A stretch of 64,000 nucleotides of DNA from Tepidimonas fonticaldi (GTDB taxonomy: Bacteria > Pseudomonadota > Gammaproteobacteria > Burkholderiales > Burkholderiaceae_C). The notes under the pieces were generated by a model that did no database searches, had not been told where the DNA came from, and saw only the letters and a program-made list of their open reading frames with translations. Where the stretch lies: NCBI RefSeq assembly GCF_007556755.1, contig NZ_VJOO01000001.1, positions 1 through 64,000 on the forward strand, written 5' to 3'. This document shows, piece after piece, positions 4,238 through 64,000 of this stretch (its first letter is position 1; each line of letters opens with the position of its first letter). A program made the translations under genes and the position numbers.

Positions 4238-5586
4238 CGACACGACAGTACTTCGGCACCGACGGCATCCGCGGCACGGTGGGCCGAGCGCCGATCACGC
4301 CGGACTTCGCGCTGCGGCTGGCGCACGCGGTCGGGCAGGTGCTCAGGCGCACCGAAGCGCGGCCCACGGTGCTGATCGGCAAGGACACGCGCATCTCTGG
4401 TTATATGCTGGAGTCGGCGCTGGAATCGGGTTTTGCCTCCGCCGGGGTGGACGTGGTGCTGCTCGGGCCGGTTCCGACGCCCGCGGTGGCGTACCTCACG
4501 CGCGCGCAGCGCGCGAGCCTCGGCGTCGTCATCAGCGCCAGCCACAACCCCTACCCGGACAACGGCATCAAGTTCTTCAGCGCCCACGGCACCAAGCTGC
4601 CCGACGAGTGGGAGCTGGCGGTGGAAGCGGCGCTGGCGCAGCCGCCGGCGTGGGTGGACTCGGCCTCGCTCGGCGCGGCGCGGCGGCTGAGCGATGCTGC
4701 CGGGCGCTACATCGAGTTCTGCAAGAGCACCTTCGCCCCGGACCTCAGCCTGCGGGGGTTGAAGATCGTGGTGGATGCGGCCCATGGTGCGGCCTACCAG
4801 ATCGCGCCGGCGGTGTTCCACGAACTGGGCGCCGACGTCGTGCCGATCGGCTGCAGCCCCAACGGCCGCAACATCAACGACGGCGTCGGCGCCACGCACC
4901 CGCAGACGCTGATTGCCGCGGTGCGCGCGCACGAGGCCGACCTCGGCATCGCGCTGGACGGCGACGCCGACCGGCTGCAGATGGTCGACGCCAGCGGCCG
5001 CCTCTACGACGGCGACGAGCTGCTGTACGTGCTGGCGGACGACCGGCTGGGCCGCGACGAGGTGGTGCCGGGCGTGGTCGGCACGCTGATGACCAACATG
5101 GCCATCGAGCAGGCGCTGGCCGCGCGCGGCGTGCGGCTGGTGCGCGCCAAGGTCGGCGACCGCTACGTGCTGGAGGAGCTGCACCGCCACCACTGGCTGC
5201 TGGGCGGGGAGGGCTCCGGCCACCTGATCATCCTGGACAGGCAGACCACCGGCGACGGCATCGTCTCGGCGCTGCAGGTGCTGCAGGCCTTCCTGCGCCA
5301 GCAGCGCACGCTGGCGGACGTGCTGCGCGGCGTGGAGCGCTTTCCGCAGGTGCTGCGCAACGTGCGGCTGGCCCCGGGCGCGGACTGGCGCGCGAGCGCC
5401 GCTCTGCAGCAGGCGCAGCGTGAGGCCGAGGCGGCGCTGGGCGCCAATGGCCGCGTGCTGATCCGCGCCAGCGGCACCGAGCCGGTGCTGCGCGTGATGG
5501 TGGAGGCGCGCCGCGCCGAGGACGCCGAACGCTGGGCCGCGCGGCTGGCCGAGGCGGCTGTTGCGGGGGCGCCCGTGTCGGCGTGA
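4234..5586 (+). CDS. glmM: Phosphoglucosamine mutase GlmM
   Basis: A 450-residue alpha-D-phosphohexomutase that converts glucosamine-6-phosphate to glucosamine-1-phosphate for UDP-GlcNAc, peptidoglycan and LPS synthesis. It starts with [12 protein letters not shown]. The catalytic phosphoserine lies in [13 protein letters not shown] (near residue 105), the metal loop is DGDADRLQM (near residue 243), the sugar loop is GGEGSGH, and the phosphate-binding [12 protein letters not shown] is near the C-terminus. Length matches the family (about 445). It is coupled to folP by an ATGA overlap and followed after only 7 bp by the isomerase-like gene. Confidence 0.96.
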
Positions 5587-11211: not shown

Positions 11212-11929
11212 GGCCCCACAGCAGCGCCAGTCCCAGCGCCATCGTCACCCCCAGCGCCGACAGCAGCGGCACCAGCGGCCAGTCGGCGCGCATCGCCAGG
11301 GCCAGTGCCCCCAGCATCACGAGGACGCTCGCGTTCTCGTTGAAGCCCTGGATGGCGATCGACTGCCCCGGCTGCAGCAGCCGGTGGCCGCGGTACTGCA
11401 GCAGCGCGTTCATCGGCACCACCAGCATCCCGCCCAGCGCACCGAAACCCCAGAACCACGTCGTCACACCGCCAACGACAGCCAGCCGAGCGGATCACGC
11501 CACAGCCGCGCGTTGTCGCGCCAGAAGCGCGGCCACAGCGCCGGCCAGTCGCGCAGCGGCAGCGCGCGCCGCGCCGGCCGCGACGGGATGCGACGGTTGC
11601 ACCACGCCGCCAGGGCATAGAGCGCCAGCACCGCCGCGAACGCCGGCAGCAGCGCCGTGGTCGGCAGCCAGCCGTCCAGCCCCAGCCACGCCAGCGCCTT
11701 CAGCGCGTTCATGCGCCCCATCAGCACGTTCTTGCGCACCGCATCGGCCCAGGCGCCGGCCAGCGGCGCCAGCAGCACGTAGCCACGTGAAGGCGAACTT
11801 CAGTAGCGGGGCCCACCACAGCGGGTGGCGCTGCTCCTGCAGATAGGCGATCGCGACGATCAGCACCGCGTGGTCGGCCAGCCCCGAGAGGAACTGCGTC
11901 GCCAGCAACCAGAAAAAACCCGCCGGCAT
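11165..11929 (-). pseudogene. lplT: Decayed lysophospholipid transporter gene (lplT remnant)
   Basis: Three overlapping minus-strand frames carry consecutive pieces of LplT. The start (MPAGFFWLLATQFLSGLADH) runs to KFAFT near 11790; the sequence then continues one frame over with YVLLAPLAGAWAD, and after LGWLSLAV a stop at about 11464 is bypassed by another shift into VTTWFWG. The second break looks like a TG duplication (GTGTGACG where GTGACG is expected). Besides the frameshifts, two stretches expected in a roughly 400-residue transporter are missing: the segment between the first helices and the central loop (after KALAWLGLDG), and several helices between FWGFGA and LVVPMNALLQ. Intact LplT flips lysophospholipids for reacylation by Aas. 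It cannot be functional as it stands. Confidence 0.85.
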
Positions 11930-11989
11930 GGGGCCGCAAGTCTGGCGCCGCTGCGTGACACGCGCGTGAAGCCGGGCCGGCCGCGTGCG

Positions 11990-12008
11990 ATGTCATGCCG
12001 CTGACACG
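11990..12008 (+). promoter_or_regulatory. Putative PhoB box before the OlsB-like gene
   Basis: TGTCAT (11991-11996) is followed 11 bp later by TGACAC (12002-12007), one mismatch from a second TGTCAC half-site. It lies 94 bp before the ATG at 12102. The element is partly palindromic, so it could also have served the divergent lplT remnant. Confidence 0.5.
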
Positions 12009-12101
12009 GAACCGCCAAGGCCGCGTCACGCCCGCCGCCCAGAATGCCCAGCCGTGGGCGGCCGCGGCGCCGCCCGCCACCCCAAGCGGAGATGACGCCC
12101 G

Positions 12102-12959
12102 ATGAAAGAGCTTCCGACGCCCACGCTGCACCTGTCCACCCTGGTTGGGGGCCAGACCCCGGGCCGCACGGCCGGGAGGTTGCTTCCAGCGCGCGCGGCC
12201 GACGCTGCCGCTGCGCCCGCTGCGCGCCTGGAGGTGGCGTGGGCGCGCCACCTCGACGACGTGCGCGCCGCCCAGCGCCTGAGGTACGCGGTGTTCGCCG
12301 AGGAGATGGGCGCGCGCCTGCGCACGCCGCTGCCGGGGCACGACATCGACCTGTTCGACGACTACTGCGAGCATCTGCTGGTGCGCGAGGCCGACACCGG
12401 TGAGGTGATCGGCACCTACCGCGTGCTCACCCCCGCGCAGGCCAAGCGCGTCGGCTGCTTCTACAGCGACACCGAGTTCGACCTGACGCGCCTGCGCGCC
12501 CTGCGCGAGCAGATGGTGGAGCTGGGCCGCTCCTGCGTGCACCCGCAGCACCGCCACGGCGGCGTCATCATGGCGCTGTGGGGGGCGCTGGCGGACTTCA
12601 TGGTGCGCAACCGGCTGGACGTGATGATCGGCTGCGCCAGCATCCCGATGCACTACGAGGGCCCGCACGGCATGGCCGGCGGCGGCCACGCCGCGGCCAG
12701 CATCTGGCGCCAGGTGCGCGAGCGCCATCTGGCGCCGGTGGAGTTCCACGTCACGCCGCGGCTGCCGCTGCCGGTGTACGAGCTGGACGACACCCTGCCG
12801 GTGGAGCCGCCGGCGCTGGTTAAGGGCTACCTGCGGCTGGGCGCCAAGGTGCTGGGCGCGCCGGCCTGGGACCCGGACTTCAACACCGCCGATCTGCCGA
12901 TGATGATGCGGCTGGCGGACCTGCCGTCGCGCTACCGGCGCCACCTGCTGGGGGCCTGA
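12102..12959 (+). CDS. OlsB-like GNAT N-acyltransferase (ornithine lipid-type)
   Basis: A 285-residue protein of the PF13444 acyltransferase group, which includes OlsB (L-ornithine + 3-hydroxyacyl-ACP to lyso-ornithine lipid). Typical elements are RYAVFAEEMGAR, DIDLFDDYCEHLLVRE, GTYRVLTPAQA, the VELGRSCVHPQHR acyl-donor region and ALADFMVRNRLDVMIGCASI. About 55 residues precede the conserved part. The ATG at 12102 has a GGAG about 10 bp upstream. The partner O-acyltransferase OlsA is not in the window. The gene overlaps the next start by one base (TGATG), so it is coupled to the PlcP-like gene, and a PhoB-type repeat precedes it. Ornithine lipid synthesis under phosphate limitation is the best inference; an unrelated amino-acceptor is possible. 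Confidence 0.75.
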   Translation: MKELPTPTLHLSTLVGGQTPGRTAGRLLPARAADAAAAPAARLEVAWARHLDDVRAAQRLRYAVFAEEMGARLRTPLPGHDIDLFDDYCEHLLVREADTGEVIGTYRVLTPAQAKRVGCFYSDTEFDLTRLRALREQMVELGRSCVHPQHRHGGVIMALWGALADFMVRNRLDVMIGCASIPMHYEGPHGMAGGGHAAASIWRQVRERHLAPVEFHVTPRLPLPVYELDDTLPVEPPALVKGYLRLGAKVLGAPAWDPDFNTADLPMMMRLADLPSRYRRHLLGA

Positions 12960-13882
12960 TGCTGCGCAGCGACTCTGTGGCAGGACGGACGGCCCGGTGG
13001 CCGGACGCGGCGGGCGGTGCCCGGCCGAGCGGGGTGGCCGCGGCGCGGGACGGGGGCTGGATCGAACCCGACGAAGACGACCATCCCGCCGAGGGGCGAG
13101 AGCGGCTGCGCGCGGTGTTCATCTCGGACCTGCACCTGGGCACGCCGGGCTGCCAGGCCAAGGCGCTGCTGGCGTTCCTCAAGGCGCACCCGAGCGACCG
13201 GCTGTACCTGGTCGGCGACATCATCGACGGCTGGCAGCTGCGCCGGCGCTGGTACTGGCCGCAGAGCCACAACGACGTCGTGCAGAAGATCCTGCGCCGC
13301 GCGCGCAAGGGCTGCCAGGTGGTGTTCATCCCCGGCAACCACGACGAGTTCGTGCGCGAGTTCGTCGGGCACCCCTTCGGCGGGGTGGGCGTGGTGGAAG
13401 AAGCCGTGCACGAGACCGCCGACGGCCGCCGCCTGTGGGTGACGCACGGCGATTTGTACGACGGCGTGATCCAGTACGCCAAATGGCTGGCCTACCTGGG
13501 GGACACCCTGTACGAGTGGGCGCTGCGCCTGAATCGCCATGTCAACTCCTGGCGCGCCCGCATGGGGTTGCCCTACTGGTCCCTGTCGCAGTACCTCAAG
13601 CACCGTGTCAAGTCGGCGGTCAGCTTCATCACCCGCTTCGAGGAGGCGCTGGCGCACGAGGCGCGCCGCCGCGGGCTGGACGGCGTCGTCTGCGGCCACA
13701 TCCACCGGCCGGAGATGCGTGTCATCGACGGTGTGCTGTACTGCAACGACGGGGATTGGGTGGAGAGCCTCAGCGCCCTGGTCGAACACGCCGATGGCCG
13801 ACTGGAGATCGTCCACTGGGCGCAGGAGCGGGTGGCCGTCCCCGTCACGGCCGGGGCCGCGGTCCACCGTGCGCGCGCCTGA
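12959..13882 (+). CDS. plcP: PlcP-like metallophosphoesterase (often labelled UDP-2,3-diacylglucosamine diphosphatase)
   Basis: A 307-residue calcineurin-like phosphoesterase. The dimetal motifs occur in order: FISDLHLGTPG, YLVGDIIDGW, FIPGNHDE, WVTHGDLYDGV and VCGHIHRPE. The central block WYWPQSHNDVVQKILRR and the long helical insert after HGDLYD match, from memory, the phosphate-starvation phospholipase C PlcP of Sinorhizobium and marine alphaproteobacteria better than LpxH, which is shorter (about 240 aa) and lacks this block. PlcP splits phospholipid headgroups and leaves diacylglycerol. About 45 residues before the first motif are unconserved, so the true start may be downstream of 12959. 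The TGATG overlap couples it to the OlsB-like gene, and the nearby GT4 gene would use its product. Confidence 0.75.
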   Translation: MLRSDSVAGRTARWPDAAGGARPSGVAAARDGGWIEPDEDDHPAEGRERLRAVFISDLHLGTPGCQAKALLAFLKAHPSDRLYLVGDIIDGWQLRRRWYWPQSHNDVVQKILRRARKGCQVVFIPGNHDEFVREFVGHPFGGVGVVEEAVHETADGRRLWVTHGDLYDGVIQYAKWLAYLGDTLYEWALRLNRHVNSWRARMGLPYWSLSQYLKHRVKSAVSFITRFEEALAHEARRRGLDGVVCGHIHRPEMRVIDGVLYCNDGDWVESLSALVEHADGRLEIVHWAQERVAVPVTAGAAVHRARA

Positions 13883-13912
13883 GCCGGTCACCGAGCCCGC
13901 ACGGTGCGGTGA

Positions 13913-51710: not shown

Positions 51711-53267
<1,557 letters not shown>

Positions 53268-53282
53268 CACCACGCCGTGCCG

Positions 53283-53315
53283 AGGGCCGCCAGCGAGGCG
53301 GCCCTTCGCTTTGGC
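53283..53315 (+). terminator. Stem-loop between guaB and guaA
   Basis: AGGGCCGCC (53283-53291) and GGCGGCCCT (53297-53305) form a perfect 9-bp stem with a 5-base loop, followed by a weakly T-containing tail TTCGCTTTGG. It may partly terminate guaB transcripts or act as a processing site. Confidence 0.5.
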
Positions 53316-53338
53316 GGCCCCGCAGCGGATATGACCCG

Positions 53339-54955
<1,617 letters not shown>

Positions 54956-54986: not shown

Positions 54987-56720
54987 TCAGCTCAGCATTG
55001 CCTGCACGGCCTTGATGATGGGGGCGTCGTTCTTGTGGGTCAGTATTTCAGGCAGTCTGTCGATCGGGATCAGCATGACGGCCTGGCTTTCCCAGCCCAT
55101 GTCGCCGGGGTGGCCGCTGATACGGCGGGCTAGGTAATAGCGGGTGTAGCTCGTTGATCGGGGCACATCCACCAGAAAACGGGTTAGCTGTACGCGGAGG
55201 CCGGCTTCTTCGTAGGCTTCCCGGATCGCGGCGGCTTGCAGGCTAGTGCCGGGGGAGTAGGTGCCCTTGGGGAAGGTCGCCTGGTAACCGCCGTAGGCGT
55301 TGCTGGGGGCCACTGCCCAGACACGCCCGTCGTCCTCGACGATGACCACGCCGGCTGCGGCTTTCTTGCCTTTGGGGAGGTTGAGGTCGGGTTCTTCCAC
55401 CGGATGTTGCTCAGCCAATCGCTGCCACCCGGCATGGTCGGTTGGCGCATCAACCCACGAGTCAAAGGGTATTGCTGCAAGTTCTGACGGCATCGGGCCA
55501 TCCGGGATGACGATGGCGATGCTCTCGGGATCCTGCCAGGTCCACAGGGCCGTGGGCGTGCTGGGGTGGGCGAGCTTGACGGGATTGCCGTTATCATCGC
55601 GGCGCGGGTGTACCGGCGGGCCGGGCTGGAGAACTTCTTCCTCGTCCTCGAGTGCGTCGTCTTCCTCCAGTTCTGCGTCCAGGGCCTCTAGCTCGCGCAG
55701 CAATTTCTCGAAGCTGGACTGTTGACTTTCCTCAACAGGCACTTCGTCGAAATCCTCCGGGTTCTCTTCAGGCACGAGGCAATTCCCGGCTTCTTCGTCC
55801 CGCTGCATGAAGCGTGAGCGGTTCGCCCAGGTGAAGTCACTGAGTGTTACATCCGGGAAGTAAAGCGTGTGAGTCCCCAGGATCACACTGGCAGTGAATT
55901 CGCGCAGGACGGCGACAAACTCGAACAGCGCGTTCAGGTTGTGAGGAGACGAGTCATTGGCCCAGTCGGCGATGATTTTTGCAATTGCCGTCGACAGGCC
56001 GGCCAGTCCTTCGCTGAGGATGCAGTGCAGGTTCTCATCGGCGTACCAGTCCGGGTCCAGCGCCAGCGTCCGGATGACAGCCTTGCCCAATCCCTGCTCG
56101 GTGCGCCAGGCTTCCAGCCCGTGGAAGCTCTCGTCAGCACCGCTGAGCACCGATGCAATGCGTTCGTTGGCGCTCAGCACATCGGAGAAGCTGGCGGGTT
56201 CATAATCGGGCAAGGCATCCAGCCCGGAACAGTATTTGGGCAGCTCCTTGCAGAGGATGCGCCAGAAATAGGGGGCAATCAGCTCCATGATCACGGACGG
56301 AGAACCCAGATAGCCGGGCTGCGTCGCCTCTTTCAGGGCAGAGACGAAGCTTGACTCGTGGGGCTGATGGGCCTCGTCGCTGGCGTAATAGCTCAGCACG
56401 TCGAGCAAGGTATTCCAGGCGTCATCGCGGGTGCCGCCATAGTCGGGCCCCAGGTTGATCCTTACCCTGCGCGCAACCCCGCCGTCACCGTCGTCGTCGA
56501 ACACCACCTCGTACATCTTGATGCCCGTCCAGCTGCGGTGGATATGCAGGATGTTGTCCTCAAAATAGAGGAACCACTTCTCGTCCTGATCGGACGGGAC
56601 GAACCCGCGCCGGAGGTTGCGCATGTGCGCGGCGTTGAAATGCAGCTCGATCTTCATGTCCTCATACGAGGCAGGCATCGGCTTGAGGTCTGGCCAATCC
56701 CTCTTGGTGGCGATATGCAT
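54987..56720 (-). CDS. Nudix hydrolase fused to an uncharacterised N-terminal region, island protein
   Basis: A 577-residue protein. The C-terminal about 140 residues are a Nudix domain: KKAAAGVVIVEDDGRVWAV, then the box G-x5-T-x7-REAYEEAGL, where the usual first Glu is Thr but REuxEExGu is intact. The N-terminal about 100 residues (LHFNAAHMRNLRRGF, WFLYFEDNILHIHRSWTG, IKMYEVVFDD) look like a separate domain known to me only from uncharacterised proteins. A long middle part has an acidic stretch (ELEEDDALEDEEEV). The ATG at 56720 has GGAG upstream. GC is lower than in guaA (32 of 60 bases in 55921-55980). It lies downstream of res on the same strand and may belong to that system. Substrate not predictable. 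Confidence 0.65.
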   Translation of the reverse strand: MHIATKRDWPDLKPMPASYEDMKIELHFNAAHMRNLRRGFVPSDQDEKWFLYFEDNILHIHRSWTGIKMYEVVFDDDGDGGVARRVRINLGPDYGGTRDDAWNTLLDVLSYYASDEAHQPHESSFVSALKEATQPGYLGSPSVIMELIAPYFWRILCKELPKYCSGLDALPDYEPASFSDVLSANERIASVLSGADESFHGLEAWRTEQGLGKAVIRTLALDPDWYADENLHCILSEGLAGLSTAIAKIIADWANDSSPHNLNALFEFVAVLREFTASVILGTHTLYFPDVTLSDFTWANRSRFMQRDEEAGNCLVPEENPEDFDEVPVEESQQSSFEKLLRELEALDAELEEDDALEDEEEVLQPGPPVHPRRDDNGNPVKLAHPSTPTALWTWQDPESIAIVIPDGPMPSELAAIPFDSWVDAPTDHAGWQRLAEQHPVEEPDLNLPKGKKAAAGVVIVEDDGRVWAVAPSNAYGGYQATFPKGTYSPGTSLQAAAIREAYEEAGLRVQLTRFLVDVPRSTSYTRYYLARRISGHPGDMGWESQAVMLIPIDRLPEILTHKNDAPIIKAVQAMLS

Positions 56721-56840
56721 GGTTGCGGCTCCGTTGCAAAAGGGCTTCACGCCCTCATTGAATCGGCCTGCAGGGCAGTCACAACCGGCAGGCCTTTGGT
56801 TCAAGAGGACAATCCGCGTGCAGGCTTTTCCTGTTCTCGC

Positions 56841-59800
56841 TCATGACTGGGAAGCGTCAGGCCCAGGCACGGCTGCTTCCAGCAACTGGCGGATATAGCT
56901 ATCCCCGTCTTCCTCCTGAAACAGGATGTGTTTTTTCTGCATCTCGCCCTTGGTGATGCCCCAAAGCTTGCTCATTTCATGCGAGGGCGTGTTCGAGACG
57001 ATGAAGGACTCGAGCACAACATCAGGCTGCCCCAGCCGCTTCTCGATGTCCTTGACCGTTTCGTAGAAGCTGATCTTGGGATCCTGGAGGCCGACGTTGC
57101 GGATGCCTTTGGGGTCGACAAAGGTCACGCGCTGCCGTTTGCCTTCGAGCTGCCAGATGATGAAGTCCGGGTGGAAGTTTCCAGCCTCGAAGAAGCCGAC
57201 GCCACGGCCCTTGCTGAGGTTGCGCAGCAGGTAGAGTTCGCGTTCCGCAAAATAGCCGGGGTTGGCGTCGTGGAACGCCTTCAGGTCCTCGATGAACCGG
57301 CGCTCGCCCTTATTGAGCGGGGCGGGTGAGATTTCCACTACACTGCCGTCCAGGAACAGCAACGGCTGGTAGAGGTGTCGCCCGAACCAGATTGCCTTGA
57401 GGCCCCGGAACTCCCAGTCCTTCAGATTCCCTTGCTCGATGGCCTCTTTCAGCTCTTTCAGTTTTGCGACGATTTCCTGCTGCGATTCCTCGATCAGGAT
57501 CCGGTAACCGTATTCGGCGCCATCCTCACTCAGGATGGACGGGAAGTTGGGATCGTCCTCGGTGAGGTCGCGGTATTCCAGGTGCGGCAATTCCCACTCT
57601 TTCTTGCGGAAGGTGTAGTAGCGCTCCACGTACTTGCGCAGAAGGGCCTGGGCGATCTCCTGCCATACGCGCACCTTTTCGAACGAGTCGAAGGCCAGCT
57701 CCGATGCAGGGATGAGCAGTCGGTACCAGCTGGTGTCCACCAGCAATGCAGCGATGCCGGAACGGGGCAGGTTGAGGTTGTACCAGCCACGCTCGGCCTT
57801 GAAACGTTCGAGGTCGAAGTACAGCTGATCGAGGCCCAGGAAGGCGATGTGCTGCTTCGTCAGGTGCGCCTCATTGGGGGCGCCTTCGTCCTCGCTGCCC
57901 GATACCCCGTCGGACTTCATGGTCTGGATCTTCGGGTACCAGTTCAGCACCACCTGGTTCTTCTGCAGGTAGGCCGTGGCGGGCTCAAGGTCGGGGCGCG
58001 GGGGCTGGAGGGTCGGAACCGGCCCCAGCTTGCGGAAGGCGTCGCCAAACTCAGTCTTGACGCCGTTGATCTCTTTTTTGAGACGGATCGTCTTGAGCGG
58101 CTTCGTGCCCAGGTTCCGGATGACCGGCAGGATGAATTCGATGCGTTCTTCGTTGGCAGGCAAACCTTCCGCTTCAAGAAAATCGCGGAACTGCGACATG
58201 TAATCGGCGCGGACGCCGAAGATGTGCAGCGTTTCGAGCAGGTCGATGTACTTGGGCCGTTTCAGCGCCGCGGGGAGGGTTGCACGCACGCTGCGCTTGA
58301 GGCTCATGCCATAGCCCTTCAACCGCACGCCGCGGCCGAAGAGCTGGATGATCTGCGCGCCCTCGCTGCGCCCAACGTTCATCAGCCCCATGGTGCTCAC
58401 GCGCCAGCTGCTCCATCCCTCGGTGAACTTCTTCGAACCAATGAGCACGTTGATGGCGGAGTGCGGCTTGTCCAGCTCGTGGAACAACGATCCGGAAAAT
58501 TCCCGCTCGGCGACATGCAAGCCGCTGGCTTCGCACAGCTTCACCAGCTTGGTGTCGTCACCGACGTTGATGACGCCAAAGAACGCGTTGTCGCCCACGC
58601 GCACGCCGATTTCGCCGGCGGCGCCCTTCAGGTTCTCGACGTGCAGCAGGCCGCCTGCGGGAGCGTTGAACAGGGTCGCCAGTGTTTCGTCGAAGATCTG
58701 TTCCGGCGACAGGCCGCAGGTGTTCAGGTAGGCGAAACGGCCCGCGAACAGGTTCTTGCCGGTGGCCGTCAGCAACCCTTCGTTCAGCACGCGCCGGATG
58801 CGCTCGGCGCTGTCCTTGCGATTCGCCACGTAGGCGGCCAGGAACTTCAGGATGGCCACGACGTCCGACACATCCTTTTTGTCCTCCTTGCGCACGGCAT
58901 TGACGCTGCCGCCCACGAAGACCCACAACGGCTTTTCGATGTTGAACGGGCGCTGGCTCGTCTCCAGTTCCCGGTACAGCCGCTGCTGCTGGAAGAACGA
59001 CAGCAGACAGGCGGTGAGGTAGGTCCTCATCCATTCCTCGTTGCGGTCGTCTTCCAGGTTGAGGATGTGGTAGTCCTTGCCGAAACCGTCGCCGTAGAAC
59101 CAGCGATAGGAATAGTCGAACAGCGTGCTGCGCGCGTAGAGGTCGGTCAGCTGTCGGTTTCCGGCCACGGCCTGGCCGAAGGTGGCGGAATATTCGAACG
59201 AAAAGCCCTTTTCACACAGCGCGTTGCGGAACTTCATCCAGGCCCCGTCGCCGCCTGCCGAAGCACCGCGGTGCCCTTCATCGACGAGGACAAGGTTGTT
59301 GCCCTCGAAGGCATCCACCGCCACTGTCTTCTCGCCCATCTCCTCCTTCAGCTTGGTGACCTCCAGGATTTCCACCGCACGGCCGGCGAACAGGCCGCGT
59401 CCGTCCTTGTTGAAGATCTCCGCCTCGATGCCCGACTTCTGGAACTCGCGCAGATGCTGCTGCGACAGCCCTTCGTTGGGCGTGAGCAGGATGATCCGGT
59501 TCAGCTCGCGCGAAAGACCATGTGTTTCCAGAAACCGCTGGTACTGGAGGATGTTGGCATGCATGAGCAGTGTTTTGCCGCTGCCGGTGGCCATCCAGAA
59601 CGCGATCTTGTTGAGCTGGAGGCGAGGGTCCTCAGACTCGTCCAGTGCCGCGATCCGGTCCGCTTCCGGGAGCGTCTCGTTCAGCGCCGCAATGCGCGCG
59701 TTGAGCGCCTGCCGCAGGCCGGCGGGGTCGCGGAAGTAGCGGTCGAGGTAGATCTCCGTGAACAGCAGCGCCAGGTACTGGAAGTACTTCCAGACGATCG

Positions 59801-60155
59801 GCTCCTCACCCCGGGTGATGCGCCGGTCGTTGAGGTGTTGCGTGACCGAAACGATGGCCTGGTCGTATTCCAGCAGCTGTTCGTCCGACAGCTCCGGCCT
59901 GTTCTCCGGGGGCAGGTGCAGGCACAGGGCGTGGTGGAAGCGGTGGATGTTGTCCGCGTCCAGTCCTTCCAGCGACTCGTCTTTCAAGTGAGCGGCGAGC
60001 TGGTCGAAGCGCTCGACCCCGAACAGACCGAGCAGCCACTGGTTGAGGGCGAGCTTGCGGTTGAACGGCAACGACGCGCGGGGCGCGGCGGCCAGGCCGC
60101 GCGCAGCCGCCCTGGGCGAAGCTGCATCGTTCTTGCGAGGACGTCCGCGCGGCAT
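56841..60155 (-). CDS. Type III-like restriction subunit Res (SF2 helicase with PD-(D/E)xK nuclease)
   Basis: A 1104-residue protein. The SF2 helicase core has Walker A MATGSGKT (residues 189-195), Walker B VDEGH (291-295), motif III-like YSATFGQ, and motif VI in [15 protein letters not shown]. The C-terminal nuclease candidate has PD at 996-997 (NFHPDFIIW) and, 17 residues on, D1014 and K1016 in FVDPKG, a PD-(D/E)xK arrangement. This is the layout of type III Res subunits, which cut after translocation or sliding from two opposed sites. The start has a strong AAGGAGG and overlaps the stop of a 36-codon ORF (TGATG). The mod gene is upstream. Confidence 0.85.
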
Positions 60156-60265
60156 CAGGCAGCCTCCTTCCGCTTGTCGCTCATTGGATAGCAGCTACGG
60201 ATGTTGTCGATCATTTTCAGGCCCAAAGTGAGTGACAAACCTGCTTGTTGCGAACGGACGAGCAT
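60155..60265 (-). CDS. 36-codon ORF joining mod and res
   Basis: The ATG at 60265 overlaps the mod stop as TGATG, and its TGA overlaps the res ATG as TGATG, so one frame of 36 residues ([18 protein letters not shown] at the start, SDKRKEAA at the end) exactly bridges the two genes. The peptide has no recognisable motif; it is slightly basic with a Leu-rich start. It carries the Shine-Dalgarno for res inside its last codons. It could be a coupling cistron that ties Res synthesis to Mod, a small subunit, or a remnant. Confidence 0.5.
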
Positions 60266-63200
60266 CACACGCCCTCCATTTCGAACATCAGGCGGAAGAA
60301 GTCCTCCTCGATCAGGCGCACCTTCCAGGTGTCATCCGGGGCCTTGAGGTTTTCCAGGTTGTTGTCGCCGTTCACGTAGATCAGGTCGAATTCGCTGTCC
60401 TTGCTGGAGTAGCCCTGCTTGCGGAACCACTCGTCCAGCACCAGGTTGTCGCGCTCGATGCCTTCCGGGGCCTCGCCACCCGGGCGCTTGCGCCAGATGA
60501 CGAGGGTGCGGCGGCCGTCGGGCGTGGTGCCGGTGACGGTGCGGAACCACCACGGGCCTTCCGGGTCCTCCTTCAGGCGGCCGTCCAGCAGCAGCCGGCG
60601 CGGCGCGTCCGCCGGCAGGTCCGGATCGTCGTCGCGGCGGAACGCGGCGCTGTAGGTGCGCGGCGCGGCGATGTGGTCCACCTTCAGGCCGATCAGCCAG
60701 TTGAAGGTCTCCTGCAGGTCGACATTCACCTCGCGGGACTCGTCCGAACCCGGGCGCTTGACCTTCAGCCTGTAGGCCGTGGGGTCCATGAAGGCGGCCA
60801 CGTTCAGCAGCGACTGGCTGCCGCGCGTTTCCACGTCCAGCATGTAGCGCAGCAGGTACTGCTCCCGGAAGCCGTCCGCCCCCTGGGCCTGCGGGCTGTC
60901 GAGCAGGCTCTGCTGCGCCTCGGTGCGGCGCAGTTCCAGGTTGTTCAGCGTGTCCTCGTAGGACTCGAGGCGGATCACTTTCATGATCCGCGGGCTGCGC
61001 TCGGCTTCCTCAGGTGTTGCGAAGCGCTTGGGTTTGCCAGTCCTCCAATCAGGGGTATAAACGACCTTTTTCAGACGCGGAAGAAGAACGGTGTCGAAGT
61101 AGTCGGCTTGCTCCACGAGGATGAACTTGCGCTGACCACCGTCTTCACGGTTGAGATTGATGACGGCATGACCGGTGGTTCCTGAGCCGGCAAAATAGTC
61201 AATTACAGCTTCGTTGCTGCGCTTGCGAATATTTGTCTGCAACAGGCGCTGAATTAATAGTGATGGTTTGGGATAGGGAAAGATTCGCTTTGAGCCAAAC
61301 AACGCATCGAACTCAGAATTGGCCAATGCGTTATCGCCAGCAAACTCTCGATCGAATAGCGTCACTGGTACCAAGCCATCTTGGACGTCGGATAGATAGC
61401 GCTTCACCATAGGGTATGCGGCGCCATCTCCCCAAATTACGGCGTTCTCGGTGACCTTCTGCTTCCATGTCGTTTCGCTCAGCCGCCAGTACTGTCCTGG
61501 TGGGGGACGCAGAATGATCCCATTGGGCTTTTCAATGACGTAGTCCGCATCGTATGGATTGTTGGCGTAGATCGGGTCCGGTTTCCATGGCCCTTTGGGA
61601 TCATTGTCCGGATTGGTATATGCGTCAGTGTTCTCTCGGGGAATTAGCACCCTCTCCCATTGGTCTTTATTGATCGCAAAGCACGGAATGTAGTCATGAG
61701 ATACTGAGAACAATCTTGCAGAATTCTTTCGGGTGTGGACTTTTTCCCAAATAATAGTTGCGACATGATTGTCGCGCCCAAAAACATCTCGCAGCAAAGA
61801 GACAAGATCACAATACATTACGTCGTCAATGCTGATATATTGGCCCCCGTCGTGACGTAATAGCTGTCGAAGAAGCAGGAGTCGTGATGCTAGCATCGCA
61901 ATCCAACTGGAGTAGGTGTAGCCGTCTTTGTATACAAACTTTCCTTCACTGCGATCTTTTTCAGTGTTGTAGGGCGGATCGATAAATGCACACTTGATAC
62001 CATTGCGGTATCGAAGTTGAAGAATTGCGAGGGCACTAAAGTTCTCGCTGTGCACCAGCAGGCCATCCATTTTGTCCTCCACGGCTTCGAGTTTCTCTAG
62101 AAGCCGTGTGGTGAGGTCGGCGTCGAAATGCCGCGTGTCCACCATCAGCGTCGGATGCGCCTTCAGAAACTCCACCGTCAGCGGCACGCTATATCCCGGC
62201 GTCGTCAGGTCGCCCTTGATTTCATCAATCGCACACAGCCGCACCCATTCCTCGCGTTGAGCGTCATTGGCGGCTATCTCCGGATAGAACTCCTCCGGAA
62301 TCACACCCAGCCGGATGCAATAGCTGGTCTCGACGACAAACTTCTTCTTCAGCCACAGCTTCTTCTGGAAGTCTTCCAGCTGCGCCAGGAAGTCGATGAT
62401 CTTGTGCGCGATGCGGCGGATGACCTTGATCTTGGACAGGTACTGCTCGACGCGCGGTGCGGTTTCGTTTTCCACGTCGTCGAGGTGCATGACCTCGTTC
62501 TTGATGTAGAAGTCCAGCTCGCGCCGCAGAAAGCCGCCCAGGTCCTTGTGGATGAAGTAGTCGAAGGTGTTGCGGGCGGTGTAGCGGTCCAGATGCACGC
62601 GCAGCCGGGTGTTCTCCGAGGCCGTGCCGTCGGCGCGCACGTGCTTCCCGCCCAGGACCTTGATCCAGTCGGCCAGCGCCGGGTCGTCGAGGGCAAGGAT
62701 CGCCGCCTCGGCCTCGGCGTTCAGGTCCTTCTGCTTGGCCAGATCGGGCGCGTAGGTGAAGCGAATCACCAGTTCGCCGTCCTCGATGGCCGCAAAGGGC
62801 GCCGGGGCCAGCCGGAAGCGGCGCTCCTTGCCGGCCTGTTCCTTGACGTTGCCGTGCTCGCCCTCGGCGGCGTCCACGAGCCTGAAGTGGACGCGCATGG
62901 GGTTCCGTTCGTCCTCCGGGCGCAGGCGGAAGGCGTAGTCGCGGAAGCTTTCGCTGGTCTTGATGTAGTACTGGTCCGCGTTGGCCCAGTGGAGCTTGAC
63001 CTCCTCGCCCTCGTAGGGGATGGCGTAGACGCCGGGCTTGTAGACGCGCTTGCTGAGGAAGTCGCCCTCGGAGTAGTAGCGGCGGAAGAAACTGTAGAGG
63101 TGGTCGTAGACCTCGGCTTCCAGCGCCCCGGTGGCCAGTTCCTTCTCCAGTTCGGCCTTGTCGGCGGTGCGGTACTGGGCGAACGCCTGCTTCACCTGCG

Positions 63201-63342
63201 GCAGCAGGTCCTTGTCCAGGAACTGCGTCACCTCCGCACTCCGGGCGTGCAGGATGCGGTAGATGCCGAAGTCCAGTTCCGGCTGGTCGAGCTGGAACAG
63301 CTCCTTGAGCAGGGTTTTCAGCTTTTCGTATTTCTGGCTCAT
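60265..63342 (-). CDS. Type III-like Mod DNA methyltransferase (N6-adenine, beta-class order)
   Basis: A 1025-residue methyltransferase. The catalytic motif IV DPPYN (residues about 455-459, in [13 protein letters not shown]) precedes the SAM motif I in [18 protein letters not shown] (about 714-731), the permuted order of beta-class N6-adenine enzymes such as type III Mod. About 260 residues lie between them and probably hold the target recognition region. About 400 N-terminal residues (with [17 protein letters not shown]) and a 250-residue C-terminus are additional; standard Mod is about 650. Codons about 415-770 lie in AT-rich DNA (25 of 60 bases G/C at 61741-61800), while the flanks are GC-rich (46 of 60 at 60481-60540), which points to exchange of the specificity core. 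Confidence 0.85.
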
Positions 63343-63385
63343 TGCGTGGTGGTCCTGTTGAATCGTTGGCGGGCGCGTCGCTTCG

Positions 63386-64000
63386 TCAGACGACGGCCCA
63401 GCGAATGGTGAAAAGGGTTTCGGCGTGCGTGCGTTGCGCCAGCCGCTGTTCCAGCTGGTCGATCAGCTGGTCGCGCTTTTCCATGATCTCGTCCTCGATG
63501 CGGAAGATCTCCTGCCGCTGGCGGCGCTGCTGCCGTTCCAGCTTCTGGAGCTTCTCCTGGATCGCGTGCTGCTCGGCCAGTGTGGTGGCCTGTCGTGCCT
63601 GCCGGCGCAGGGCCTTGATCTGTTCCTTGGTGTCGGCCAGCGCCTTCTCGGCGGAGAGCACCATGTCGTCGGCCCAGCGTTCCAGCTTCTCCCGCGCCTC
63701 GTGGAAATAGCGATTGTTCTGCTCCAGCGAACGGCTGAGGGTGGCCTGGGCATGGCGCTCGCTCTCCGCAGCCAGACGCCGGGAAACCGTGTCAGGGATC
63801 GTTGCGGTGCCTGCGACGTGGCCGCCGCACTGGAACAGCTTCTCCATGGTTTCCTGGTCCAGCGCTGCCCCGTCGTCGGTAAAGCCGGAGAACAGCAGGT
63901 GTTCTTCTCGTTCGTAGGACTCGATGGTCAGACGGGTGAGCGTCAGGTAGCCGCGCTGGCCGCGCAGGGCTTCGACGACGGCGATACGGGTCGGGTGGCG
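63386..64000 (-). CDS. C-terminal part of a probable SNF2-type helicase with coiled-coil tail (5' end outside window)
   Basis: The minus-strand frame is open from base 64000 to the stop at 63386, giving 204 visible residues. The first part ([21 protein letters not shown]) is followed by a long charged coiled coil (for example [16 protein letters not shown], then [19 protein letters not shown]) and the end LFTIRWAVV. From memory this ending is shared by large SNF2-related helicases encoded next to such methyltransferases. No helicase motif lies inside the window, so the name is an inference. It is 43 bp upstream of mod on the same strand, probably the same operon. Confidence 0.55.

Follow-up and report, generated by a model that had tools for sequence, protein, structure and literature searches.

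A candidate ADP-ribose-processing Nudix protein in a type III restriction island at the 3′ end of guaA in Tepidimonas fonticaldi

We present here a restriction island at the 3′ end of guaA in Tepidimonas fonticaldi, found in a window of 64 kb (positions 1 to 64,000 of contig NZ_VJOO01000001.1) whose minus strand holds the genes for ND-Nudix, Res, Mod, and the 3′ part of a helicase. The source contig is 264 kb long, and its next 16 kb (L002), added to the analysis, complete the helicase gene (SNF2) and add a WYL gene upstream. The known part of the island is SNF2-Mod-Res; the new part is the ND-Nudix protein, in which two domains named here ND1 and ND2 (together ND) are fused to a Nudix module. 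We read ND-Nudix as a portable plug-in that would process ADP-ribose for the restriction island, with a probability of about 0.45. The ADP-ribose part of this reading is proposed because ND1 is fused to ARH and Macro domains in other genomes and because phages carry related genes in an ADP-ribosyltransferase operon.

Results

The phage gene set is the strongest link of the ND-Nudix family to ADP-ribose. The Nudix module matched 8 of 50,697 phage records, at 42 to 47% identity over 93 to 98%. Seven of the eight share the order large ADP-ribosyltransferase gene, ND2-like protein (~165 amino acids [aa]), Nudix, and a relative of MWIF, a ~105-aa family (no Pfam match in one member tested) that also recurs beside ND and Nudix in bacteria. 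The transferase domain scored above the Pfam cutoff in five of six phages scanned, and that of a seventh, Dolphis, annotated as such, shares 86% identity with one of the scanned transferases across 764 residues. The ~165-aa phage family is related to ND2 (hhalign, 97.7%, E = 1.5e-12), and profile comparison likewise joins the phage MWIF relative to its bacterial counterpart (99.8%, E = 2.4e-30). A tblastn search of the phage records with ND gave no match, the relation to ND2 emerging only by profile comparison. In the eighth record, an unannotated fecal clone, neither a transferase gene nor ND2-like or MWIF genes were seen in 7.3 kb. The transferase, ND2-like protein, and Nudix of Yersinia phage fHe-Yen8-01 are annotated as particle-associated. 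On Pseudomonas juntendi plasmid p2463-1 (L092, 5794-10194), a 1466-aa protein with the same Nudix type lies among phage head genes, which suggests a packaged Nudix on a phage-plasmid.

Bacterial relatives were collected by scanning 84,980 species genomes with an ND alignment, which gave 190 relatives; 80 were kept, with the other 110 outside the counts. The 24 ND-Nudix loci considered below are the 20 of these 80 with a Nudix match in the locus, the window, a genome of another genus (G129), and two plasmid loci. L133, L139, and L164 have ND1 joined to ADP_ribosyl_GH (all three that were tested with Pfam, of nine suspected by phmmer), and L126 has it joined to Macro. In Aromatoleum tolulyticum (L098), a type III Mod is followed by one uninterrupted 1579-aa frame reading Res-ND1-ND2-Nudix, the Res part of which carries the motifs GTGKT, DEAH, and PD...EVK and is 34% identical to the Res of L104, a locus with the order ND-Res-Mod in one direction. 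Nudix precedes ND in L101 and L100 (the latter a contig also labelled L078), and in Rhodobacter L089 the two are separate neighbors after an inositol-monophosphatase-ARH protein. MWIF adjoins or is fused with ND or Nudix in 13 of the 20 scan loci.

Similar modules occur elsewhere in the genus. By sequence reading, a second Nudix of the same type in the source genome (G000:C5:65259-65885; L070, 8174-10027) is fused to an apparent ADP-ribosylglycohydrolase domain and followed by an MWIF-like gene, and a similar fusion is present in G234. In G024 (L076, 531-9889), Nudix and MWIF genes precede those for a 1781-aa and a 951-aa protein, the latter 28% identical to SNF2; this is possibly another defense system with a Nudix/MWIF module.

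A restriction gene or one like those of the bacteriophage exclusion (BREX) system lies within ~10 kb in 15 of the 24 ND-Nudix loci. The neighbors are of type III (window, L096, L097, and L098), type I (L102, L106, L130, and L131, with L103 having a methyltransferase only, ~7.5 kb away), GmrSD or DUF262 (L063, L145, and L090), McrBC (L107), BrxC (L109), and a DUF499 protein (L108); for L107, L108, and L109, whose only matches to the restriction references are self-matches, the assignment comes from Pfam or PADLOC. WYL genes are present in 11 loci and ADP-ribosylglycohydrolase in 6, the stretches of L096 and L097 beginning inside SNF2, with their WYL status outside the data. The 60 kept loci without a Nudix match, most of them from other phyla, in which matches may be harder to detect, gave 3 restriction matches (L104, with full ND plus Res-Mod; L127; and L163, with a weak SNF2 match) and 11 ADP-ribosylglycohydrolase matches. 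For scale, two of the gene families involved were measured in 120 genomes of the bacterial family, GmrSD_C being found in 21 and N6_Mtase in 94, so few random genes should have such a match within 10 kb. The tendency of defense genes to cluster in islands explains part of the neighbor excess.

The Nudix fusion claimed in an earlier note, which was made from the letters of the window, is confirmed by domain models: the protein comprises two domains without a Pfam family and a Nudix module (Table 1), in which the Nudix box REAYEEAG (55200-55223) is intact. The AlphaFold model of ND alone has a mean predicted local distance difference test score of 91.7, with five strands and two helices in ND1 and an all-helical ND2. 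Among 18 members, neither domain had a consistent Pfam match (three families, in one member each, E of at least 0.011). Searches of ND with Foldseek, VIA-align, and BFVD gave no PDB match with E ≤0.001; the best viral fold matches (E = 2e-3 and 3.5e-3) were to proteins of 144 and 175 aa, and the best comparison with PDB structures (Z = 5.1; root mean square deviation, 3.8 over 103 residues; model residues 17 to 125) was weak and stood in a mixed list among many unrelated rows. The ND profile matched PDB sequences with a best E value of 0.14, and no helix-turn-helix model matched the whole protein. Near relatives are 89 to 98% identical. The ratio of nonsynonymous to synonymous substitution rates (dN/dS) of ND-Nudix is 0.27 against both G129 and L097, and that of WYL is 0.26 against G129; between the source genome and G129, both genes are under purifying selection.

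ND-Nudix is a facultative but recurrent companion of restriction systems, not a type III subunit. In G129, the WYL and ND-Nudix genes are 90.8% and 91.8% identical in DNA to those of the island, and between them SNF2-Mod-Res is replaced by one GmrSD gene, which includes a RAMA domain. In G591, of the same genus, Res is 97% identical over the part present (the 5′ part is off the contig end), and the place of ND-Nudix after it is taken by two small genes that resemble VapBC by eye; the search for ND-Nudix in G591 covered this locus, and the genome sets searched with the Nudix protein or Mod did not include G591. The joints of the G129 block and of the G591 divergence nearly coincide (56873 and 56878), and the last 11 Res codons, stop included, belong to the stretch of DNA in common with G129 and so seem to have been acquired together with ND-Nudix. 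The earlier note had named a Nudix gene missing beside homologous Mod-Res pairs as evidence against its proposal, and the outcome is divided. None of seven plasmid Mod-Res regions inspected has an annotated Nudix gene (annotation only, from an incomplete table), and none of five long-Mod loci of the family has a tblastn match to ND-Nudix. The gene is present in L096, from a metagenome-assembled genome named Uliginosibacterium gangwonense, and in L097, from Tepidimonas charontis, and in L098 it is fused to a different Res. We reject ND-Nudix as a fixed type III subunit, given the other genes at its place in G591 and the lack of an annotated copy in the plasmid regions. Aeromonas plasmid pE31A carries both SNF2-Mod-Res and a WYL/ARH/MWIF-Nudix-ND1/DUF262/SNF2 locus, at a large distance from each other.

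Mod and Res are type III by motif order and models. In Mod, DPPY (aa 455) precedes FAGSG (aa 717), that is, motif IV comes before motif I with the recognition region between them; together with the MTase_III model and three PDB matches, including the Mod of EcoP15I, this order places it in the beta class. Res retains GSGKT, DEGH, and PDFIIW...VDPK (a superfamily 2 helicase and a C-terminal PD-(D/E)xK nuclease). Extension past position 64000 bore out the earlier note's upstream SNF2-type helicase: a 966-aa, SNF2/DrmD-like protein with GLGKT, DEAH, and QRIGRCHRYGQ intact. Its gene ends 43 bp 5′ of mod, and it has no significant similarity to Res (best BLASTP E value, 1.1). Among nuclease models, Exonuc_VII_L alone matched it, below the cutoff (17.7 versus 35.9), besides ResIII, which covers the helicase part. 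The island thus has a helicase-like ATPase gene directly 5′ of mod, nonhomologous to Res and without a nuclease motif, as in three-gene type III systems. The proposed extension of a type III system by a helicase was therefore correct as to content, but the SNF2-Mod-Res form has already been described (Murray et al. 2021, PMC8259958). In that work, BspHIV and Eco86II have the same order, ATPase-Mod-Res, and an extra ATPase unlike Res, a likeness judged by gene order and description; the present island differs in having WYL upstream and ND-Nudix downstream. The three-gene group is characterized by N4-methylcytosine (PMC8259958), which the Mod motifs here do not distinguish from N6-methyladenine.

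A plasmid search with Mod matched 559 records, 23 of them covering at least 80%. Five of the seven Mod regions inspected (Hymenobacter, Aeromonas, E. coli, Blastomonas, and Conchiformibius) have a BLAST homolog of SNF2 beside or near Mod-Res, in some with the order altered or genes inserted. The Priestia region has a helicase without a BLAST match to SNF2, and the Halobacterium region has an ATPase that was outside the comparison. Within the family, SNF2 is present in three of five long-Mod loci (L064 to L066), and L068 is an incomplete contig. A megablast search of 5426 E. coli genomes found the SNF2-Mod DNA of the E. coli plasmid in two of them. A Mod fragment at a contig end of the source genome (G000:C2:125-1042), 43% identical to aa 415 to 695 of Mod, hints at a second type III system.

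Parts of the core have also been exchanged. Compared with L097, SNF2 (aa 289 to 966 compared) and Res are 97% identical, whereas Mod is 20 to 52% identical over aa 401 to 700, 72% over aa 701 to 750, and 86 to 98% elsewhere. Because motif IV and the recognition region both lie in the exchanged part, Mod probably has different target sites in the two genomes. L096 and L097 carry a 370-aa Fic gene between Mod and Res, at the Mod stop codon in L097 (PADLOC SoFic, 372 bits). The small open reading frame that the earlier note placed between Mod and Res was not upheld: the sole coding-strand frame spanning the gap has 36 residues and no support, and we reject it as a functional gene. At the Fic position, L085 has a gene pair with the annotations AAA family ATPase and DUF4276 (12108-13885), and L067 has two unannotated genes of similar size and order between Mod and Res (11884-13730).

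The island gene calls (54958-67340) comprise WYL, SNF2, Mod, Res, and ND-Nudix only. As the earlier note stated for Mod, Res, the helicase, and the Nudix fusion, and as gene calls and domain models agree, they lie on one strand; all five genes run in the same direction with gaps of ≤120 bp, tail to tail with guaA. No integrase is among the gene calls inside the island. The domain scan matched no helix-turn-helix model in WYL, and no inverted repeat of at least 8 was found upstream of it, in L002 from 5100 to 5400. The GC content of the island is 0.62, with flanks at 0.69 and 0.70. In G151 and G596, of the same genus, guaA is followed within ~45 bp by a tadA-like deaminase region, which in the source genome starts near contig position 68035; the source genome is therefore taken to hold ~13 kb of extra sequence, with an FMN_bind_2 gene at its distal end. 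A 10-bp repeat at the guaA 3′ end (Table 1) fits integration there; it is short, hence only suggestive, and since about 0.1 such 10-mers are expected by chance across the two stretches compared, it may have a chance origin. WYL, this repeat, and the lack of an insert in relatives go beyond the earlier note. In L096, Res and ND-Nudix genes likewise lie at the guaA 3′ end. The site (guaA at window positions 53264-54955, to contig position 68035) may be a hotspot, with other genes in G024 and G590, Res and a small gene pair in G591, and no insert in G151 and G596.

Table 1. Features of the restriction island; positions 1 to 64,000 are those of the window
Feature	Position	Strand	Description
TCGAGTGGGA	54942..54951		guaA 3′ end; proposed attachment-site repeat; exact second copy at contig 67341-67350, outside the window
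ND-Nudix gene	54987..56720	minus	577 aa from ATG; 605 aa if TTG at 56804 is used
Nudix module	54990..55628	minus	N-terminal extension of ~85 aa (NudC type); Pfam NUDIX at 55017-55364, 48 bits
ND2 domain	55806..56381	minus	aa 114-305; helical in model; YLGSP motif; related to ~165-aa phage protein
ND1 domain	56382..56720	minus	aa 1-113; conserved EKWF..HRSWTG (alignments A1-A3)
Res, type III restriction helicase-nuclease	56841..60155	minus	1104 aa; ResIII, 44 bits; PADLOC REase_III, 728 bits
Mod-Res gap	60156..60264	minus	109 bp; position of the Fic gene in L096 and L097, absent in the source genome
Mod, type III DNA methyltransferase	60265..63342	minus	1025 aa; N6_N4_Mtase, 94 bits; PADLOC MTase_III, 635 bits
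Exchanged Mod center	61201..62142	minus	Motif IV and recognition region up to motif I; GC content, 0.49
SNF2/DrmD-like helicase	63386..64000 (3′ part); whole gene contig 63386-66286	minus	966 aa; SNF2-rel_dom, 114 bits; PADLOC DrmD, 661 bits
WYL gene	contig 66273-67130	minus	285 aa; Pfam WYL, 42 bits; overlaps the start of the helicase gene

Several described defense systems resemble the island in part. The ADP-ribosylglycohydrolase (ARG)-centered conflict systems (Iyer et al. 2022, PMC9503650) likewise combine WYL and Nudix components with helicases and nucleases of the restriction type in a setting of ADP-ribose chemistry, and are proposed in that paper to undo phage ADP-ribosylation. The island has the WYL and Nudix components (42 and 48 bits) and no ADP-ribosylglycohydrolase by gene calls and Pfam; its Nudix is instead fused to ND1 and ND2 and stands beside a complete restriction-modification system. 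As with the BrxR and CapW regulators (PMC9122601 and PMC9122588), of which BrxR has relatives that colocalize with varied systems, a WYL gene heads a defense operon; the island differs in that its WYL gene forms a pair with ND-Nudix that encloses interchangeable cores. The RapA/SNF2-type helicase beside a methyltransferase recalls ARMADA (PMC12458937), but the YprA-like helicase and PglX-like methyltransferase are not in the island, Mod is type III, and the other genes are otherwise assigned, so ARMADA is rejected. SNF2 was scored best by the PADLOC DrmD model, a likeness to DISARM. The DISARM gene set includes drmA, drmB, and drmC. None of these is among the island gene calls and the methyltransferase matches type III models, so DISARM membership is rejected as well. 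No description of the ND-Nudix family with restriction systems was found in the open-access literature searched, which held few of the subscription papers and no supplements.

Discussion

In the mechanism that we propose for what is probably a mobile defense island, Mod would mark self DNA at one asymmetric site, Mod-Res would cut unmarked DNA, and the SNF2 protein would serve as an accessory motor, while the WYL protein at the head of the operon would probably repress it. As in other type III systems, methylation would fall on one strand, and cleavage would require ATP and a pair of inverted sites. ND1 and ND2 would probably select a substrate bearing ADP-ribose, whose pyrophosphate the Nudix module would cleave. 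Most likely, ND-Nudix would thereby undo or clear ADP-ribose placed on host molecules by injected phage ADP-ribosyltransferases, keeping the restriction core functional. We favor this WYL-repressed clearing, which agrees with what Iyer et al. 2022 (PMC9503650) propose for ARG-centered systems.

Several points weigh against this proposal. The ND-Nudix substrate is predicted from context, and genes for a glycohydrolase, a Macro protein, or a transferase are missing from the island. A PDB fold search ranked Ap4A hydrolases, MutT, and RppH above the first ADP-ribose pyrophosphatase, with close E values. The transferase of phage ST4, though annotated as one, is below the Pfam cutoff (15.8 versus 23.4), and the ST4 ND2-like protein was missed by BLAST and aligned at 21%. 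Since phages keep the gene set beside the transferase, its role there may be to aid the attack and not to reverse it. No restriction gene was seen in 9 of the 24 ND-Nudix loci, 4 of them shorter than 12 kb with partial annotation, and the reference proteins for the neighbor counts were partly drawn from the counted loci.

ND-Nudix might instead take part in restriction itself, regulating or supplying the complex, for example by limiting self-damage or handling modified nucleotides. The Res-ND-Nudix fusion in L098, the ND-Res-Mod order in L104, and the company of type I, III, IV, and BREX-like systems would suit such a role; the homologous Mod-Res pairs without ND-Nudix (G591 and plasmids) do not, and the ND1-ARH/Macro fusions and the phage transferase operon point to ADP-ribose, which leaves this alternative unlikely. 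We think it more doubtful still that ND-Nudix is an abortive-infection effector degrading an essential nucleotide (nicotinamide adenine dinucleotide, ADP-ribose, or an alarmone) when restriction fails. The intact Nudix box, the WYL genes in 11 of 24 loci, and the action of Nudix enzymes on nucleoside diphosphate-linked (NDP-X) compounds (PMC9503650) are compatible with such an effector, whereas no toxic partner was recognized in the island and phages carry the same enzyme, annotated as particle-associated in one record. Just as doubtful is a captured phage-derived set that still serves phages, or a hitchhiking house-cleaning enzyme without a defense role: ND2-like, Nudix, and MWIF genes do occur together in phages and ND-Nudix is facultative in the island, but purifying selection (dN/dS of 0.27) and the recurrent association with WYL and unrelated restriction systems argue otherwise.

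Returning to ADP-ribose clearing, we suggest, more tentatively than for the island itself, that ND-Nudix and its frequent partner MWIF form a portable anti-ADP-ribosylation module shared by phage transferase operons and bacterial restriction or BREX-like islands. Bacteria would wire this module via WYL to type I, III, IV, and BREX-like systems as a counter-counter-defense, swapping the core and keeping the WYL/Nudix shell.

Natural cassette exchange separates that WYL/Nudix shell from the restriction core. The unnamed domains ND1 and ND2 and the small protein MWIF, any of which may coincide with a chaperone family of PMC9503650, gain a testable biochemical context. Restriction and ADP-ribosylation are usually studied apart; if our reading is true, ND-Nudix is a mobile enzyme that joins the two, and it would show bacteria shielding their restriction defenses from injected phage enzymes.

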